Shown here one piece after another: positions 15,585 through 40,770 of a stretch of DNA of 53,855 bases. The stretch covers positions 1 to 53,855 of the forward strand of contig CAJXMH010000020.1 in the NCBI GenBank assembly GCA_913056345.1, written 5' to 3'. The notes beneath the pieces were generated by a model. That model had not been told where the DNA came from and searched no databases. It saw only the letters and a list, made by a program, of their open reading frames with translations. A program made the translations under genes and the position numbers. The first letter of the stretch is position 1. Every line of letters starts with the position of its first letter. Source of the DNA: an uncultured Flavobacteriales bacterium (GTDB taxonomy: Bacteria > Bacteroidota > Bacteroidia > Flavobacteriales_E > Vicingaceae).

Positions 15585-15872
15585 ATGAAAAAACTATTTA
15601 CACTATTGGTAGTGGCAGGAATGTTCACCTTTACTGCTTGTGACCAAGCCGAAAAAAAAGAAACCAACACCGAAGCGGAGGCGCAAGAAATGATGGAAGA
15701 AATGGATGAAAAAACCGAAGAGGTTAGTGATGCTGCTGATGAAGCAGCAGACGAGGCCGCTGATGAAATGGAAGAAGCAGCTGATGAAGCTGAAGAAGCT
15801 GTTGAAGAAGCAGGTGACGCAGTTGAAGAAGCTACGGATACGCTTAAGTCAAACGCTGAAGAAGCAATGTAA
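15585..15872 (+). CDS. Small Glu/Ala-rich lipoprotein
   Basis: 95 residues from ATG 15585; the frame is open 45 nt further upstream, but this ATG gives the lipoprotein signal MKKLFTLLVVAGMFTFTAC. After the lipobox Cys the mature part is almost entirely Glu, Asp, Ala and Met in loose AADEAADE and EEAVEEAGD repeats, predicted as one long helix or coiled coil. Comparable acidic lipoproteins are common in Bacteroidota; the function is unknown. It is expressed from its own promoter and ends at a strong hairpin shared with the convergent protease gene. Confidence 0.75.
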   Translation: MKKLFTLLVVAGMFTFTACDQAEKKETNTEAEAQEMMEEMDEKTEEVSDAADEAADEAADEMEEAADEAEEAVEEAGDAVEEATDTLKSNAEEAM

Positions 15873-32997: not shown

Positions 32998-34158
32998 ATG
33001 GGCTGTTCGACTTGCACGAACAAAACGAACGGGAGCCCAGCCGGATGCCGCAGCAATGGTAGTTGTGGCAATGGGGGCTGCAATAAACTAACGGTTTTTA
33101 ATTGGCTTGCTAACATGCAAATGCCATCTAAAGCCGATCAAACTACTTACGTAGAAGTTCGTTTTAAAAACGGCAGAAAAAATTTTTACCTCAACGACAC
33201 TGATCTTGAACTGTATGATGGCGATGTAATTGCTGTTCAAGCCGAAAATGGCCACGATGTTGGGGTAGTTTGCCTTTCAGGCGAATTAGTAAAACTGCAA
33301 ATGCAGAAAAAGGGTGTTTTTCACCAAAGCAAAGAGCTTTTAAAAGTTTACCGCAAGGCCAATGAAAAAGACATTGAAGATTGGCAAAGCGGTCGAGCAA
33401 AAGAGCCCGAGGTTATGCTACGTTCAAGAGCTATTGCTAATGAACTTGACCTAAAAATGAAAATTTCAGATGTAGAATACCAAGCCGACTTAAGCAAGGC
33501 TACATTCTACTATACCGCTGATGAAAGAGTTGACTTTAGGGCCTTGATCAGAAAGCTTGCCGATGCATTTAAGGTTCGTATTGAAATGAAGCAAATTGGT
33601 ATGCGCCAAGAAGCGGGTAGAATAGGTGGCATAGGCTCCTGTGGAAGAGAGCTATGTTGCTCTACTTGGCTTACTGACTTTCGTTCCGTTTCAACTTCAG
33701 CAGCGCGTTATCAGCAACTCTCACTTAACCCAAGCAAATTGGCAGGACAATGCGGGAAATTAAAGTGTTGCTTGAATTATGAGTTGGACGTTTACCTTGA
33801 TGAGTTGAAAAAGTTTCCTGACACCAAGAAGAACTTGAAAACCAAAAAAGGCGAGGCATTCTTCCAAAAAATGGACATTTTCAGCAATAAACTCTGGTAT
33901 TCTTATAAAGAAAACCCTTCAGAGTTTATTGAATTAAGCTTAGACCGAGTAACAGAAGTGCTTGAAGTAAACAAGAAGGGGCAAGCCGTAGAAGACTTGA
34001 AAGACTTTGCTAACATTGCTCCAATTGATCAACCTGAATACGCTAATGTTGTGGGTCAAGATAGCTTAACGCGCTTTGACCGAAAAGGGAAAGGGAAAGG
34101 GAAAAGAAGAAAGAACAGAAGGAAAAACCCTTCACAGAAAAAGCAACAAAAAAAGTGA
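32998..34158 (+). CDS. PSP1 domain protein, RicT-like
   Basis: 386 residues. A Cys-rich N-terminus (MGCSTCTNKTNG ... CGNGGCNK) precedes the PSP1 domain (about 40-270) with the conserved pairs RIGGIGSCGRELCCSTWL and LAGQCGKLKCCLNYELD, and a Lys/Arg-rich tail follows. In Bacillus RicT works with RicA and RicF, binds FeS clusters and assists RNA processing. Here it is the usual Bacteroidota neighbour of holB and gldH. Its stop overlaps the gldH GTG start. A small hairpin (32966-32980) without a T-tail lies upstream. Confidence 0.9.
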   Translation: MGCSTCTNKTNGSPAGCRSNGSCGNGGCNKLTVFNWLANMQMPSKADQTTYVEVRFKNGRKNFYLNDTDLELYDGDVIAVQAENGHDVGVVCLSGELVKLQMQKKGVFHQSKELLKVYRKANEKDIEDWQSGRAKEPEVMLRSRAIANELDLKMKISDVEYQADLSKATFYYTADERVDFRALIRKLADAFKVRIEMKQIGMRQEAGRIGGIGSCGRELCCSTWLTDFRSVSTSAARYQQLSLNPSKLAGQCGKLKCCLNYELDVYLDELKKFPDTKKNLKTKKGEAFFQKMDIFSNKLWYSYKENPSEFIELSLDRVTEVLEVNKKGQAVEDLKDFANIAPIDQPEYANVVGQDSLTRFDRKGKGKGKRRKNRRKNPSQKKQQKK

Positions 34159-34640
34159 GGTCAAGGCAACTCATACCTGCAGTTACATTAGTTTTAGCAG
34201 TATTCTTTTTATCTGCCTGCAATGAGAATCTGGTTTATGAGGAAAACATCAAAATTGAAGACGCAAGCTGGGAAAGAAAGCAAGCCGCTCAATTTTCTTT
34301 CATGATCAATGAAAACCAGAGGGCCTATGACATTTACTTGAACTTTCGGCACTCTCCCAAATACCCCTTTAGCAATTTATATCTTTTCATCAGAACCCTT
34401 AAGCCGGGAAACCAAATTGCTCAAGATACTGTGCAAATGTTACTAGCCGATCAAAAGGGAAAGTGGTTGGGCAAAGGCATTGGAGATTTATACGATTATC
34501 AATTCAAATTCAAAGAAAGGGTTATCTTACCAGATACAGGGAAATATACCATTGAAATTGAACAAGCCATGAGACAGGCTTCATTGCCTTATGTAACTGA
34601 CATTGGCGTGCGTGTTGAAAAAGTTGAAAATGAGCAATAA
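34155..34640 (+). CDS. gldH: Gliding motility lipoprotein GldH
   Basis: 161 residues with lipoprotein signal MRSRQLIPAVTLVLAVFFLSAC (lipobox LSAC). The family body follows: NLVYEENIKIEDASW, YDIYLNFRHSPKYPFSNLYLF and GKWLGKGIGDLYDYQF. GldH is an outer-membrane-associated lipoprotein needed for gliding and T9SS function in Flavobacterium. It starts at GTG 34155, overlapping the ricT stop (GTGA), and overlaps the PBP1A start by 11 nt, so the three genes are translationally coupled. Confidence 0.93.
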   Translation: MRSRQLIPAVTLVLAVFFLSACNENLVYEENIKIEDASWERKQAAQFSFMINENQRAYDIYLNFRHSPKYPFSNLYLFIRTLKPGNQIAQDTVQMLLADQKGKWLGKGIGDLYDYQFKFKERVILPDTGKYTIEIEQAMRQASLPYVTDIGVRVEKVENEQ

Positions 34641-37065
34641 GAAAAAGGTAAAAAGAAACTATACCAAATTTGTGCTGCTGTTTTGGCTGGTGTTTTTTAC
34701 GGGTCTAGGCAGCTTTGTTTTTTTGTTGTACGCTTCAGCGAATGAAATGCTTGGGTTTCCACCCTTGCCAACTTTCAAGCAATTAGAAAACCCAAAGAGT
34801 AACTTAGCTACCGAGGTCTACACTTCTGACAGGCAAATCTTGGGTAAATACTTCTACCAAAACAGAGTGAACGTCAGTTATGAAAAGCTTGACAAAGACA
34901 TAGTAAATGCGCTAGTTGCCACAGAAGATGAGCGGTATTACGAACATTCTGGCATAGACCTACGGGGCTTGGCTAGAGCCATTATTAACCTGGGTAAAAG
35001 CGGAGGGGCAAGTACCATAACACAGCAATTGGCCAAAATGCTATTCTCTGACGAACCGGGCAACACCTTAGAGCGAATTAAACAAAAACTGCAAGAGTGG
35101 ATCATTGCTGCACAATTGGAAAGGAGGTACACCAAAGATGAAATTATCGCCATGTACTTTAACCGTTTCGACTTCATTAACAATGCTGTTGGCATAAAGT
35201 CGGCAGCTAGCGTTTATTTTAATAGCCAGCCTGATAGTTTGCGCATAGAGCAAGCTGCTATGTTGGTGGGTATGCTCAAAAATCCTTCCCTATTTAATCC
35301 ACTTCGCTTTGAGGATACAACCTTGCACCGCAGAAATGTAGTGCTTTTCCAAATGAAGAGAAACCAACTGCTCTCTGAGCCTGAGTTCGATAGTCTAAAA
35401 CAATTGCCTTTGGGATTAAATTATTCAAGGGTAGACCACAAAGAAGGTATAGCGCCATACTTTAGAGAAGTTCTTCGTGCTGAGCTGAAAAAAATATTTA
35501 CGGAAAAAGACGAGGATGGTAATTACATTTTAGCCAAAGAAAACGGAGAGCCTTATGATATTTATAGCGATGGTTTAAAAATTTACACTACCATCAATTA
35601 TAAAATGCAAGAGTATGCTGAATGGGCTGTTAAAGAGCACTTAAGTTACCAACTCCAAGATCAGTTTTTCAGAGATCTTAAAAGAAAGAAAAACGCCCCC
35701 TTCGATTGGAGAGTTTCGTCTACTGAAATCAATCGCATATTAAACGCTTCCAAAAGACGCAGTGAGCGCTATTTGATCATGAGTGGAAAGCAATGCGCAA
35801 ATTGTGGTAGAAGAGGTAGATTCTTAGAAGAAACAAGCCTAGAAGGAGAGCCCTATGTGCATTGTAAGGCTTCTGACTGTGAACATGATACCAAAGTATA
35901 TCCAAAAGACAGTATTGAGGCAGCCTTCGAGCGTCCTGTAAAAATGAAGGTTTTCTCATGGAAAGGAGAGATTGACACCCTAATGAGTCCTATGGATAGC
36001 ATTAAATATTACAAAAGCTTTCTGCAAGCAGGCTTAATGTCAATGGATCCACAAACAGGCTACATCAAAGCGTGGGTAGGGGGAATTGACTACAATTACT
36101 TTGCCTACGACCACGTTAGACAAGGAAGAAGACAAGTGGGCTCTACCTTTAAACCCTTCGTTTATGCAGTTGCGATTGACGAAGGTTATTCACCATGCTA
36201 CGAGGTGCCCAATGTACCATACACCTTCAAAAAAGGAGAGTTTGGCTTGTTAAAAGACTGGACTCCAACCAATGACGGTGACGAATACGGCTACAATGTC
36301 TCTTTAAAGTACGGTTTAGCCAACTCTATGAATACAGTAACTGCATGGGTAATGAAGCAATTTGGACCTGAAAGAGTGATTGAAATGGCAAGAAGCATGG
36401 GCATAACAGCCCCGCTTGATACGGTGCCTTCTTTAGCTTTAGGTGTAGCAGATGCCTCGGTTTACGAAATGACCGGTGCTTTTTCCACTTTTGCCAACAA
36501 AGGAGTGTATACAGAACCTATTTTCTTAACGCGGATAGAAGACAAGGACGGTAACATTATTAAGCAATACGTGCCGGAAACACGAGAAGCCTTAAGTGAG
36601 GAGAAAGCTTACGTAATGCTAAACTTATTGGAGGGGGTAACGTCCTACAATTACAACGAAGATTTGGATGAGAATACTGCGGGGACAGGCATAAGAATAA
36701 GGTTCTCGCCAACCGATAAACGTCCTTATGCAGGAATTGAACATCCGGTAGCAGGTAAGACCGGCACCACCCAAAACAATTCAGATGGCTGGTTTTTAGG
36801 CGCTACTCCTGACCTTGTTACTGGTGTTTGGGTTGGGGCAGAAGACCGCAGTGTACGCTTTTCAAGAACCTCAGATGGGCAGGGTGCAAATACAGGTCTG
36901 CCAATTTGGGCTTATTACATGAAAAAGGTTTATGCTGATTCAACCTTAACTATTTCTACCGAAGAGTTTGAAAAGCCTGAAGAACCGATTAGTATAGAAT
37001 TGGATTGTGAGAAGTTTAAAAAACAAAATACCTTTGGTACAGGAGAAGAAGAAAATTTTCAATAG
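34630..37065 (+). CDS. Class A penicillin-binding protein 1A with a four-cysteine insertion
   Basis: 811 residues from ATG 34630. The N-terminal TM (about 9-32) is followed by a GT51 glycosyltransferase (ATEDERYYEHSGIDLRG, catalytic Glu near 99; STITQQLAKML) and a transpeptidase with SxxK Ser505 (GSTFKPF), SxN in LANSMNTV and KTG in AGKTGTTQ. It polymerises and crosslinks peptidoglycan. An unusual segment between the two domains carries Cys389, Cys392, Cys412 and Cys417 (CANCG ... HCKASDCEHD), like a zinc ribbon or a two-disulfide knot. The gene overlaps gldH by 11 nt. Confidence 0.94.
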   Translation: MSNKKKVKRNYTKFVLLFWLVFFTGLGSFVFLLYASANEMLGFPPLPTFKQLENPKSNLATEVYTSDRQILGKYFYQNRVNVSYEKLDKDIVNALVATEDERYYEHSGIDLRGLARAIINLGKSGGASTITQQLAKMLFSDEPGNTLERIKQKLQEWIIAAQLERRYTKDEIIAMYFNRFDFINNAVGIKSAASVYFNSQPDSLRIEQAAMLVGMLKNPSLFNPLRFEDTTLHRRNVVLFQMKRNQLLSEPEFDSLKQLPLGLNYSRVDHKEGIAPYFREVLRAELKKIFTEKDEDGNYILAKENGEPYDIYSDGLKIYTTINYKMQEYAEWAVKEHLSYQLQDQFFRDLKRKKNAPFDWRVSSTEINRILNASKRRSERYLIMSGKQCANCGRRGRFLEETSLEGEPYVHCKASDCEHDTKVYPKDSIEAAFERPVKMKVFSWKGEIDTLMSPMDSIKYYKSFLQAGLMSMDPQTGYIKAWVGGIDYNYFAYDHVRQGRRQVGSTFKPFVYAVAIDEGYSPCYEVPNVPYTFKKGEFGLLKDWTPTNDGDEYGYNVSLKYGLANSMNTVTAWVMKQFGPERVIEMARSMGITAPLDTVPSLALGVADASVYEMTGAFSTFANKGVYTEPIFLTRIEDKDGNIIKQYVPETREALSEEKAYVMLNLLEGVTSYNYNEDLDENTAGTGIRIRFSPTDKRPYAGIEHPVAGKTGTTQNNSDGWFLGATPDLVTGVWVGAEDRSVRFSRTSDGQGANTGLPIWAYYMKKVYADSTLTISTEEFEKPEEPISIELDCEKFKKQNTFGTGEEENFQ

Positions 37066-37072
37066 ATAGCTT

Positions 37073-37768
37073 ATGAATAAAGTAGTTAAAGATGCAGAAG
37101 AAGCCATTCGAGGCATTCAAAGTGGCATGACCTTAATGTTAGGAGGCTTTGGCCTTTGCGGCATTCCTGAAAAATGCATTGCCGCCCTAGCCAATAAACC
37201 CGAAATTAAAGACCTCACCTGTATTTCTAACAATGCAGGAGTAGACGATTTTGGTTTAGGCTTTTTGCTGCAAAATCACCAGATCAAAAAAATGATCTCT
37301 TCCTACGTGGGCGAAAACGATGAGTTTGAACGCCAAATGCTAAGCGGCGAACTTGAAGTAGAGTTAACTCCTCAAGGAACCTTAGCAGAAAAGTGCAGAG
37401 CAGGCGGTGCGGGAATTCCGGCCTTTTTCACCCCTACCGGTTACGGAACCGAAATTGCGGAAGGAAAAGAAGTACGCGAGTACAACGGAAAAAAATACAT
37501 CTTGGAAGAAAGTTTAACCTCCGACTTTTCGATCGTGAAGGCTTGGAAAGGCGATACTAAAGGAAATTTGATCTTTAAAGCTACCGCAAGGAACTTTAAT
37601 CCGATAATGGCTATGGCAGGGAAAATAACCATTGCAGAAGTAGAGCATTTGGTTGAACCAGGCGAATTAGACCCCAATGAAATTCATACCCCGGGCATTT
37701 ATGTACACCGGATTTTTGAAGGAAAAGACTATGAAAAAAGGATTGAACAGCGAACGGTAAGGTCTTAA
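37073..37768 (+). CDS. scoA: 3-oxoacid (succinyl-CoA:acetoacetate) CoA-transferase subunit A
   Basis: 231 residues with the subunit A glycine-rich motif [29 protein letters not shown] and a C-terminal [10 protein letters not shown]. With subunit B it moves CoA from succinyl-CoA to acetoacetate or similar acids. It normally sits directly before scoB; here the two are separated by 564 nt holding a four-helix-bundle gene and octamer arrays that begin at the scoA stop codon. It is 7 nt after PBP1A. Confidence 0.93.
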
Positions 37769-37822
37769 TGTAGCAATGCTATAATGAAGTAATGCAGCAA
37801 TGAACTAATTTATTAATGGTTT
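37767..37822 (+). repeat. Left octamer array (AATGNNNN x 7)
   Basis: Seven consecutive 8-nt units beginning inside the scoA stop codon: AATGTAGC, AATGCTAT, AATGAAGT, AATGCAGC, AATGAACT, AATTTATT, AATGGTTT. All share AAT at unit positions 1-3 with exact period 8. The array is the inverted form of the right array: 37798-37812 is the perfect reverse complement of 38248-38262 and of 38296-38310 (15 bp). Confidence 0.88.
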
Positions 37823-37829
37823 TTAGTAT

Positions 37830-38180
37830 TTGAATAAGCAGAATATCATATTAGAGAAGACAATAGACTTTTCACTTGAGATTATCCAGTATTGTGATCA
37901 ATTAGAAGCAAAGAAAAAATACGTAATTGCTAGACAATTGTTGAGATCTGCTACTTCTGTAGGGGCAAATGTGCATGAAGCTCAAAACTGTGAAAGCAAA
38001 GCAGACTTCATTCATAAAATCAAGATTGCAGCAAAAGAAGCAGAAGAAACAAAGTACTGGTTAACCTTATGCGAAAAATCGGATTCATACCCTTTTGACG
38101 AAAAACTAAAACACACCATTCAAGAAATTAACCTAATCATTTACAAGATACTAAGCACCTCAATAAAAAGTAAGAAGTGA
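37830..38180 (+). CDS. Four-helix-bundle protein (23S rRNA intervening-sequence-protein-like)
   Basis: 116 residues, all helical, with family features LEKTIDFSLEIIQYC, IARQLLRSATSVGANVHEAQNC and FIHKIKIAAKEAEETKYWL. The family was first seen as the protein encoded in 23S rRNA intervening sequences and also resembles the Avd accessory protein of diversity-generating retroelements; no reverse transcriptase or variable repeat is nearby. It probably forms an oligomeric RNA- or nucleic-acid-binding ring, but its function is not established. The start is TTG 37830; no ATG is available in frame. It is flanked on both sides by octamer arrays and lies between scoA and scoB. Confidence 0.88.
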   Translation: MNKQNIILEKTIDFSLEIIQYCDQLEAKKKYVIARQLLRSATSVGANVHEAQNCESKADFIHKIKIAAKEAEETKYWLTLCEKSDSYPFDEKLKHTIQEINLIIYKILSTSIKSKK

Positions 38181-38201
38181 ACAAACAACAAAAGAACAAT
38201 C

Positions 38202-38329
38202 CATTGACTAATTGATCCATTAGTTCATTGTTTCATTGATTCATTGGTAAATTAGTTCATTGATTCATTGTTCCATTGATCCATTAGTTCATTGGTAAAT
38301 TAGTTCATTGAGTGATTGATAAATTAAAA
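38202..38329 (+). repeat. Right octamer array (NATTNNNN x 16)
   Basis: Sixteen consecutive 8-nt units with exact period, mostly CATTGATT, CATTAGTT, CATTGGTA, AATTAGTT or CATTGTTC. Longer direct repeats are offset by multiples of 8: 24 nt at 38240-38263 and 38288-38311 (offset 48), and 19 nt at 38212-38230 and 38276-38294 (offset 64). The 12-mer ATTAGTTCATTG occurs four times. The array ends 3 nt before the scoB ATG at 38333. Confidence 0.9.
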
Positions 38330-38332
38330 AAT

Positions 38333-38986
38333 ATGATTGACAAAAACGGTATAGCAAAACGAATAGCGCAAGAACTCGAAGACGGTTGGTATGTAAACCT
38401 TGGAATTGGCATTCCAACCTTGGTGGCCAATTACATTCCTGACGGTATTGATGTAACCTTGCAATCTGAAAACGGACTGCTCGGCATGGGTCCCTTTCCT
38501 ACAGAAGCAGAAGTAGATGCTGATTTGATCAACGCAGGTAAGCAAACCATCACCACCAGACCGGGTTCAGTATTCTTTCACTCAGCTGATAGCTTTGCCA
38601 TGATTCGTGGTGGTAAGGTGCAGCTAACTGTCCTTGGTGCAATGGAGGTTGATCAAAACGGAGACATTGCCAATTGGAAGATACCGGGTAAAATGGTAAA
38701 AGGTATGGGAGGAGCTATGGATCTAGTAGCTTCTGCTGAAAACATCATTGTTGCCATGATGCATACCAACAAGCGTGGGGATTCTAAACTTTTGAAAAAG
38801 TGTACCCTCCCACTTACCGGTGTAAACTGCATTACAAAAATTGTGACTAATCTCGCCGTTTTGGAGGTTGAAAATGGAGCCTTTGTTTTAAAAGAAAGAG
38901 CTCCCGGGGTGAGTGTAGAAGAAATCAAGGCTGCTACTGAAGGAGAACTAATTGTGAAGGGTGAGATTCCTGAAATGAATGTTTAA
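38333..38986 (+). CDS. scoB: 3-oxoacid (succinyl-CoA:acetoacetate) CoA-transferase subunit B
   Basis: 217 residues from ATG 38333 (MIDKNGIAKRIAQEL), the normal subunit B N-terminus; an in-frame GTG at 38312 lies inside the octamer array and is less likely. The catalytic Glu is in TLQSENGLLGMGP, followed by GMGGAMDLV. It pairs with scoA. Its leader is entirely octamer array, so its translation may depend on how that RNA folds. Confidence 0.93.
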   Translation: MIDKNGIAKRIAQELEDGWYVNLGIGIPTLVANYIPDGIDVTLQSENGLLGMGPFPTEAEVDADLINAGKQTITTRPGSVFFHSADSFAMIRGGKVQLTVLGAMEVDQNGDIANWKIPGKMVKGMGGAMDLVASAENIIVAMMHTNKRGDSKLLKKCTLPLTGVNCITKIVTNLAVLEVENGAFVLKERAPGVSVEEIKAATEGELIVKGEIPEMNV

Positions 38987-38996
38987 ATAAACAACA

Positions 38997-39392
38997 ATGA
39001 AGAATTTAATTTTAATTGCATTTGTACTACTAGGCTTTGCAGCCTGCGAAAGCCCAATTGAAAATGGGGACTTGGTTTATTTGTCTTTGAGAGAGGACAA
39101 ACACTTTTCATTGAAAGAGGACAATTTTTTCAAGTGTTCTACCAAAGAAAAACTGCCCTTAGTTTACAATGAAATTGATGATAAAACCTTCACACTTAAA
39201 ACCAAAGAAGGCTTAAATGTCTATTATAAGAACTACTTTTTAAGAGTAGGTGAAGAAGAAGCAGATATTTTTTCGAAAGAAAAAGCAGATGGTAAAGTCT
39301 ATTTAATCTCGCCTGAACTACGATATGTTGGTTGTAATGGCAATCAGGTTTATCAAGTTGATAAACCCGCAGTAACTATAAATCACTATTAA
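38997..39392 (+). CDS. Small lipoprotein of unknown function
   Basis: 131 residues with lipoprotein signal MKNLILIAFVLLGFAAC (lipobox GFAAC). The rest is polar and beta-rich, with two more Cys (about 43 and 116). I do not recognise the family. It starts 10 nt after scoB and may be on the same transcript. Confidence 0.7.
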   Translation: MKNLILIAFVLLGFAACESPIENGDLVYLSLREDKHFSLKEDNFFKCSTKEKLPLVYNEIDDKTFTLKTKEGLNVYYKNYFLRVGEEEADIFSKEKADGKVYLISPELRYVGCNGNQVYQVDKPAVTINHY

Positions 39393-39409
39393 GTCCTTTT
39401 TAAGTAAAG

Positions 39410-39442
39410 TTGGGCGTCTGAAATTCTTTCATTTAACCTTTG
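39410..39442 (+). promoter_or_regulatory. Promoter of the first arylsulfotransferase-like gene
   Basis: TTG at 39410-39412, a 22-nt spacer and AACCTTTG at 39435-39442 (one mismatch to TAnnTTTG), 26 nt before the ATG. Confidence 0.35.
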
Positions 39443-39468
39443 GTAGAGAAGTAAAATATTGAATCCTG

Positions 39469-40770
39469 ATGGTAAAAAAGATTCTAAATATATTTTCTTT
39501 TATTGTTGTATTCCTTTTCATTCTTGCCGTTTACGGATGGATGGTCAATCAAATTGGAAAGGGTAGTAAAAAATTCGGTGTTCTAACTGAGCCAATTAAA
39601 TTCATGTATTCTTTTCCTGATCTTTTTGAAGAATCGGTAGAAGAAGCGAAATCACTCCCTCCCACTTTTCTGAAAACCCCTTCTAATTTTAAACCGATCA
39701 ACCAACTGAAAAAAGATCTTATAGTTTTAGCAACTTGCACCAAAACGGCTGATGAGCGCTCTATCGTCTTAATGAACCTAAAAAACGATTCTATTCTAAA
39801 AGAATGGACAGTAGACAATCCTTGGGGAGAGACCGGCAGAATTGTGAACCCTTTGATTCATCCCGATGGTTCATTGATCTATAATTATTACTACTGGGCT
39901 AAGCCAGGCTTAACCAAATTAGACTCCAATGGAAAAGTAATCTGGCAAAATCAAGAACTTGTAGTTCATCATGGTATGAATGTAAATCATGAAGGCGATA
40001 TATGGGCTTGTACTATTCGCAAAGGTAAGTCAGGTGGGGTATATGCTCTAGGCGGAGAACGTGTCTTCTATAACGATTACAAGATCACCAAGTATGACCA
40101 TGAAACAGGTGAAATTCTCTTCGATAAGTCAATAACCAAAATCCTTAAAGAAAACAATCTGGTAAATTACCTTTTTAAATCAACCATCACAGAGGAGCCT
40201 ATACATTTAAACGATGTGCAACCAGCCCTTAAAACTTCCCCGTTTTACCAAGAAGACGATGTTTTTATTAGCCTGAGAAATATAAACCTGATTATGCATT
40301 ACAGGCCTGCCAACAATAAGCTAATTGATCTCATTGAGGGGCCCTTTGCACATCAACACGATGTAGATATTTTAAATGACAGTGTTTTGGTTTTGTTTAA
40401 CAACAACACTTACAAAACCTATGAGGGCATGAAAATTAATATGGCTAAAAAAATAAAGGATAAGTCAGAATTGGAAGATGCTGGTGCACACTTCTCTAAT
40501 ATAGTAAGTTACAATCTTAGCAGTAAAAGTTTTTCTTTTATCGGTAATTCGGTTTTTGCAAAAAATAGAATCCATACTGTTAATGAAGGCTTAATGGAGT
40601 TTATAGAGCCAAAAACTTATTTTGTTGAGGAACAAAACTCAGGTGTTCTTTGGGTTATCAAAGATGAAAAAGTTCTGTACAAGAATGTTCTAAAATCTCA
40701 ACACGTGGGTTTTCATCATTTGCCTAATTGGACTAGAATTATTCAATATGGGGATAAGGATTTCAGATAG
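39469..40770 (+). CDS. Membrane-anchored arylsulfotransferase-like protein (paralogue 1)
   Basis: 433 residues: an N-terminal TM anchor (about 5-26) followed by a beta-propeller-like domain facing the periplasm. Conserved His motifs are HHGMNVNHEGDIW (His167/168), PIHLNDVQPAL (His246) and HQHDVDILNDSVLVLFNNN (His297), resembling the ASST/Arylsulfotransf_2 families, where His residues carry the sulfuryl group. The C-terminus is LPNWTRII. Two paralogues lie at 46161 and 49029. Family assignment is by motif recall and is moderately sure; donor and acceptor are unknown. Confidence 0.72.
   Translation: MVKKILNIFSFIVVFLFILAVYGWMVNQIGKGSKKFGVLTEPIKFMYSFPDLFEESVEEAKSLPPTFLKTPSNFKPINQLKKDLIVLATCTKTADERSIVLMNLKNDSILKEWTVDNPWGETGRIVNPLIHPDGSLIYNYYYWAKPGLTKLDSNGKVIWQNQELVVHHGMNVNHEGDIWACTIRKGKSGGVYALGGERVFYNDYKITKYDHETGEILFDKSITKILKENNLVNYLFKSTITEEPIHLNDVQPALKTSPFYQEDDVFISLRNINLIMHYRPANNKLIDLIEGPFAHQHDVDILNDSVLVLFNNNTYKTYEGMKINMAKKIKDKSELEDAGAHFSNIVSYNLSSKSFSFIGNSVFAKNRIHTVNEGLMEFIEPKTYFVEEQNSGVLWVIKDEKVLYKNVLKSQHVGFHHLPNWTRIIQYGDKDFR

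Follow-up and report, generated by a model that had tools for sequence, protein, structure and literature searches.

The window analysed here is the whole 53,855-nucleotide stretch of DNA from an uncultured Flavobacteriales bacterium. Between positions 32998 and 40767, its open reading frames comprise PSP1, GldH, a PBP1A-type protein, scoA, an S23 gene, scoB, an orphan and an arylsulfotransferase-like protein. The gap between the co-directional operon genes scoA and scoB is filled by a module consisting, in order, of an inverted arm, the S23 gene and an array of octamers (Table 1).

Table 1 Features of the module and its flanking genes.
Feature	Position	Strand	Evidence
scoA, 3-oxoacid CoA-transferase subunit A	37073..37768	+	PF01144 1.5e-77, TIGR02429 3e-80
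Left inverted arm, ~7 octamers AATGNNNN	37765..37818	+	period 8, 0/100 shuffles
S23 / 23S rRNA-intervening-sequence-protein gene (four helix bundle protein), 116 aa	37830..38180	+	PF05635 1e-22, TIGR02436 5.6e-26
Right arm (reported array), 16 octamers NATTNNNN, complement NNNNAATN	38202..38329	+	period 8, 0/100 shuffles
scoB, 3-oxoacid CoA-transferase subunit B	38333..38986	+	TIGR02428 1.5e-98; start set from relatives

A sequence-only reading of the window had reported the right arm as 16 octamers in unbroken phase, with NATT fixed and NNNN semi-variable. Both descriptions hold: ATT occupies unit positions 2-4 in 16/16 units, position 1 is C in 11, A in four and G in one, position 5 is G in 11 and A in five, and position 7 is T in 13. 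The exact 24-nt repeat reported at offset 48 is present and in phase (38240/38288), and the repeat at offset 64, given as 19 nt, measures 20 nt (38211/38275) and is also in phase. Scanning the whole window for period 8 gave a lag-8/16/24 score of 0.73 at the array against a mean of 0.27 (s.d. 0.045), with a sole other peak at ~37753-37816 that had been overlooked. The shuffles in Table 1 preserve dinucleotides. No part of the window outside the two arms shows period 8. An AAAGGG tract at 34084 and arrays at 15716-15839 proved unrelated, being inside open reading frames or having other periods.

The same reading had also passed over the S23 gene and, to its left, the second arm with its inverted orientation. 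The S23 gene, listed with an uncertain TTG start, scores 80.8 bits against PF05635 (curated cut-off 33.8) and also passes TIGR02436, placing its product in the family; it has a solved relative in PDB 2rld (1.2e-21, five chains). The left arm reads AATGTAGC AATGCTAT AATGAAGT AATGCAGC AATGAACT AATTTATT AATGG, its first unit overlapping the scoA stop codon. Its units are the inverted complement of the right array's CATTNNNN units, and the two arms have an inverted-complement score of 16, compared with a mean of about 8-9 for mismatched arms. The reported array forms the 3′ arm of this module, in which an inverted matched pair flanks the S23 gene. Searching Rfam produced no match over the gathering score, just a chance-level snoRNA match.

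We surveyed the 150-nt flanks of S23 genes for periods 5-13 at 200 loci, which came from relatives (set 1, 74 loci), from a phylum-wide collection made via Pfam (set 2, 50 loci) and from the S23 clade to which the window's gene belongs (set 3, 76 named loci, picked by protein similarity alone). Across the pooled loci, significant left arms had period 8 in 73/110 cases and period 7 in 37/110, with no other period. Significant right arms had period 8 in 78 cases, period 7 in 36 and period 12 in three, which we kept as exceptions (114/117 are 7 or 8). Where both arms were significant, 47 loci were (8,8), 24 were (7,7), one was (8,12) and none was (7,8), although the surveyed loci are related and a few are perhaps one genome in two sets, so that counts throughout the survey do not represent independent events. 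The inverted complementarity of a locus's own arms averaged 14.7, 12.5 and 16.2 in the three sets, versus 8.35, 7.65 and 10.1 for arms from different loci; own arms in direct orientation also scored lower (10.1, 8.7 and 8.7). At scoA-scoB loci in particular, period 8 was found in 40/42 significant arms from 38 loci in many genera (a few possibly one genome counted twice), which supports the earlier suggestion to the extent that the spacing is kept. In most loci, both neighbours were in tandem with the S23 gene (58/74, 36/50, 41/51 and 23/25), and the gene upstream of it was almost always co-directional.

We sampled 200 kb of the window's own genome. In a control of its other intergenic gaps, six of 65 were significant; two of these were the window arms and the others had scattered periods of 6, 11, 9 and 7, so that S23 flanks are enriched for such arrays. 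S23 genes are almost certainly associated, in the statistical sense, with paired 7- or 8-nt arrays. The same genome holds eight S23 copies by profile and six by direct search. One (L002) has period-7 arms, TGAATAA TGTAAAA / TTCATTT TACATTA; another, on contig C12 (L173), has period-7 arms with the unit GAGTATT; and three more (L003, L005 and L006) have arms with other units. The sequence-only reading had named an abundance of unrelated AT-rich arrays of differing period as grounds against its interpretation. These grounds apply in part: the genome does have other arrays, but they lie mostly at S23 genes or have periods 7 or 8.

The association also occurs in other phyla. At 12 plasmid S23 loci, from Dolichospermum, Planktothrix, several Nostoc, Euhalothece, Treponema saccharophilum, Candidatus Chlorohelix and Bernardetia, period-7 arms occurred on at least one side in 11 and on both sides in ten. 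Most of these arms, in cyanobacteria, a spirochaete, Chloroflexota and Bernardetia, form inverted pairs such as TAATTCG/CGAATTA. S23 genes with paired arrays of 7- or 8-base units span at least four bacterial phyla. Two of the plasmid modules sit in defence operons, one between cas2 and cas1 in Nostoc sp. TCL26-01 (L296 889-1245) and one between drmD and pglX in Planktothrix (L292 880-1239), both with heptamer arms. In the literature searched, which was mostly open-access, we found no published reports linking S23 genes to such arrays.

We then compared array period with S23 phylogeny. For 74 S23 proteins, the tree required six changes of period versus 18.5 with shuffled labels, and for 196 proteins it required nine versus 41.6; in each case 0/500 shuffles were as low. 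On the 74-protein tree, the clade containing the window's S23 (25 proteins, 99% support) had period 8 wherever a period was callable, and among significant arms in set 3, period 8 was found in 41/41 on the left and 53/55 on the right. The residues at which the period classes differ most are K65, Q52, N53, Y87, Y21, A68 and H49. Within this clade, the motif RATKTGNN is common to both arms. Left arms and reverse-complemented right arms, fitted separately, both yielded [A/G]AT[T/G][T/A]GNN, with motif-fit scores of 4.29 and 4.25 versus 3.16 for a column-shuffled control. The window's arms deviate from the clade consensus RATKTG, carrying AATGTAGC and AATGAACT instead. That period follows the protein branch suggests reading of the array by the protein. 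Of the two roles first proposed, protein binding and a zipper-like RNA duplex, we prefer the former because each S23 clade appears to have a single motif and a single period. Period and motif could nevertheless track the protein merely through shared descent of arms and gene, and slippage combined with template switching can homogenise arms without any protein.

For decades, S23/IVP proteins have been familiar from insertions in 23S rRNA. Several copies are present in many Bacteroidota genomes, with no annotation beyond 'four helix bundle protein'. To our knowledge, they have no established function. Paired inverted arrays whose period and motif track the clade are a concrete candidate substrate for S23 that can be tested. 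Our best explanation, to which we assign a probability of about 50% from these sequence comparisons, is that the arms are multi-copy tandem sites read by an S23 oligomer whose clade determines both spacing and motif, and that the module is an intercistronic element resembling the intervening sequences (IVSs) of 23S rRNA. Each 7- or 8-nt unit of the array would take one subunit of the oligomer, or one face of a subunit, and the binding surface of each clade would fix the spacing as well as the motif. The arms would serve the upkeep or movement of the element, whose mobility we infer, and not sco regulation; duplex DNA, hairpin DNA and RNA are all candidates for the bound form.

More tentatively, S23 proteins outside rRNA genes may generally be array-binding proteins with a clade-specific motif at 7- or 8-nt spacing. 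The gene, its inverted arrays and S23-less derivatives might then make up a kind of intercistronic element that is widespread across several phyla and that would account for part of the heptamer repeats of cyanobacteria and Xanthomonas. The finding that S23 genes lie inside paired inverted arrays with clade-dependent period and motif ties together two puzzles that had stood apart: the S23 family, and an excess of heptamer repeats, still unexplained, in the intergenic DNA of bacteria. The heptamers of Xanthomonas and Nostoc (GGGAATC and GGGGA(C/T)T) and the cyanobacterial STRRs are intergenic short-unit arrays, and each of two Xanthomonas genomes has 70-75 convergent inverted heptamer pairs (PMC4692102). 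In contrast to the S23 arms, no S23 link, octamer clade or protein-clade dependence was described for the Xanthomonas and Nostoc heptamers (PMC4692102). The TAACTGA repeats of marine Beggiatoaceae, Cyanobacteria and some Bacteroidetes, found just upstream of start codons as short direct heptamers (PMC4679880), also differ from S23 arms in having one fixed unit, direct repeats and no described S23 gene.

Arrays are not exclusive to S23 genes. Arrays of the strict octamer motif occur in 23/148 genomes of the phylum, far above a reversed-pattern control, but 29 of 30 fetched loci had no S23 gene within ~1.5 kb. With S23 nearby in 1/30, the strict motif fails as an S23 marker, and the predominance of arrays lacking S23 indicates that they spread or persist without an adjoining gene. 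At the genome level, octamer arrays do co-occur with octamer-clade S23 genes (4/6 versus 19/142, p = 0.0055). At one locus (L314 1500-1580), an S23-less inverted octamer pair lies in intergenic DNA with a spacer of ~16 nt and looks like a non-autonomous derivative; the genome concerned has 43 octamer matches and also carries an octamer-clade S23 gene. The window's own genome also has S23-less arrays. One region (L138 1666-1984) contains intergenic purine-rich arrays of periods 7 and 8 with no S23 open reading frame, and orphan heptamer arrays of GAGTATT/GAGTAGT type (L009 5470-5565 and G000:C27:33800-33874) match the arm units of the S23 copy on contig C12.

These arrangements recall RAYT-REPIN systems, in which a vertically kept protein gene accompanies short inverted sequences that adjoin it and are dispersed in trans. 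A comparable partnership between a long-lived S23 gene and short S23-less inverted arrays in trans would extend our best explanation and does not exclude it. The mini-element at L314, the genome-level association and the orphan heptamers sharing a unit with an S23 copy all fit. We nonetheless regard it as doubtful: no movement was seen, no orphan copies of the window's own sco motif were found, and one genome (G182) has 21 octamer matches without a strong octamer-clade S23 hit. S23 modules differ from RAYT-REPIN systems in their protein family, in lacking a tyrosine transposase and in having arrays instead of REP hairpins.

The chief rival to S23 binding is mutational: slippage would grow 7- or 8-nt arrays, template switching would equalise the arms, and S23 would be an ordinary gene lying within such a region, with the arms as its passengers. 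An intergenic heptamer excess exists in some bacteria, for which a polymerase-footprint explanation has been proposed (PMC4692102), and orphan arrays do exist. In addition, arm-to-arm mismatches of G.U and A.C type are equally common (183 v 195 and 119 v 132), as would suit a process acting on DNA. What a mutational origin leaves unexplained is the near-uniform period 8 of one S23 clade, the motif common to unrelated loci of that clade and the presence of S23 inside such pairs in distant phyla. We consider it unlikely. The earlier view that the array is non-coding and more than simple slippage is supported.

Less probable still is an RNA element of the kind found in 23S rRNA, in which the arms would form a long stem in the sco transcript, closed by a loop that contains the S23 gene, and cutting of the stem by RNase III would separate the scoA and scoB messages. 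The 23S rRNA IVSs of Coxiella burnetii and Leptospira have an S23-family open reading frame and complementary borders, are part of a transcribed unit and are vertically kept (PMC4990558). The window's module shares the S23/IVP-family protein and the complementary borders, S23 genes nearly always follow a gene of the same direction, and in the minimum-energy fold the arms are paired. The earlier suggestion of a zipper-like RNA duplex is half right, in that the partner strand it would need exists across the S23 gene. However, selection for an RNA stem should make G.U mismatches commoner than A.C mismatches; they are not, which leaves no sign of a selected RNA duplex, and the whole element folds no more stably than shuffled sequences (z = -0.86). 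The mismatch symmetry lends an RNA stem no support, though RNA remains compatible with it. The module also differs from 23S rRNA IVSs in lying between the protein genes scoA and scoB instead of in a 23S rRNA gene, in having tandem 7- or 8-nt arrays as borders where the IVS has one 28-bp stem, and in the strong purifying selection on its S23 gene described below. The Avd protein of diversity-generating retroelements has a fold homologous to PF05635 (PMC10053308), and we found no reverse transcriptase or TR/VR among the neighbouring open reading frames (32998-40767).

That the array serves the sco operon alone, for example by spacing a regulator of scoB translation or transcription, would suit a last octamer ending 3 nt before the scoB ATG but is very improbable, given that like arms flank S23 beside many other operons and that in ~25 relatives scoA and scoB are separated by a short gap devoid of both S23 and array.

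S23 occupies the scoA-scoB gap in 14 genomes including the window's, with one copy degraded. Across 37 sco-linked loci, S23 distances correlate with scoB distances (Mantel r = 0.59, 0/2000 permutations), which argues for mostly vertical descent with losses. Between close orthologue pairs, dN/dS of S23 is mostly 0.04-0.11, indicating strong purifying selection; two low-divergence pairs gave 0.18 and 0.23, values based on very few changes. Comparing occupied and empty gaps by eye, we recognised no target-site duplication or clean empty site, the gaps being too divergent. One relative (G006) has a lone TTAATGTAGCAAT in the gap, without S23, and in another (G012, L046, ~1410-1503) the gap has a hairpin, CGTCATTGCGAGGAACGAAGCAATCTC..., of a different repeat type. 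Five relatives have ~1.8 kb between scoA and scoB without an S23 match (L081, L091, L092, L093 and L094). Decayed S23 modules, with frame breaks or a stop codon, occur both at sco and elsewhere (L026/L070 in G026 and L334 in G155).
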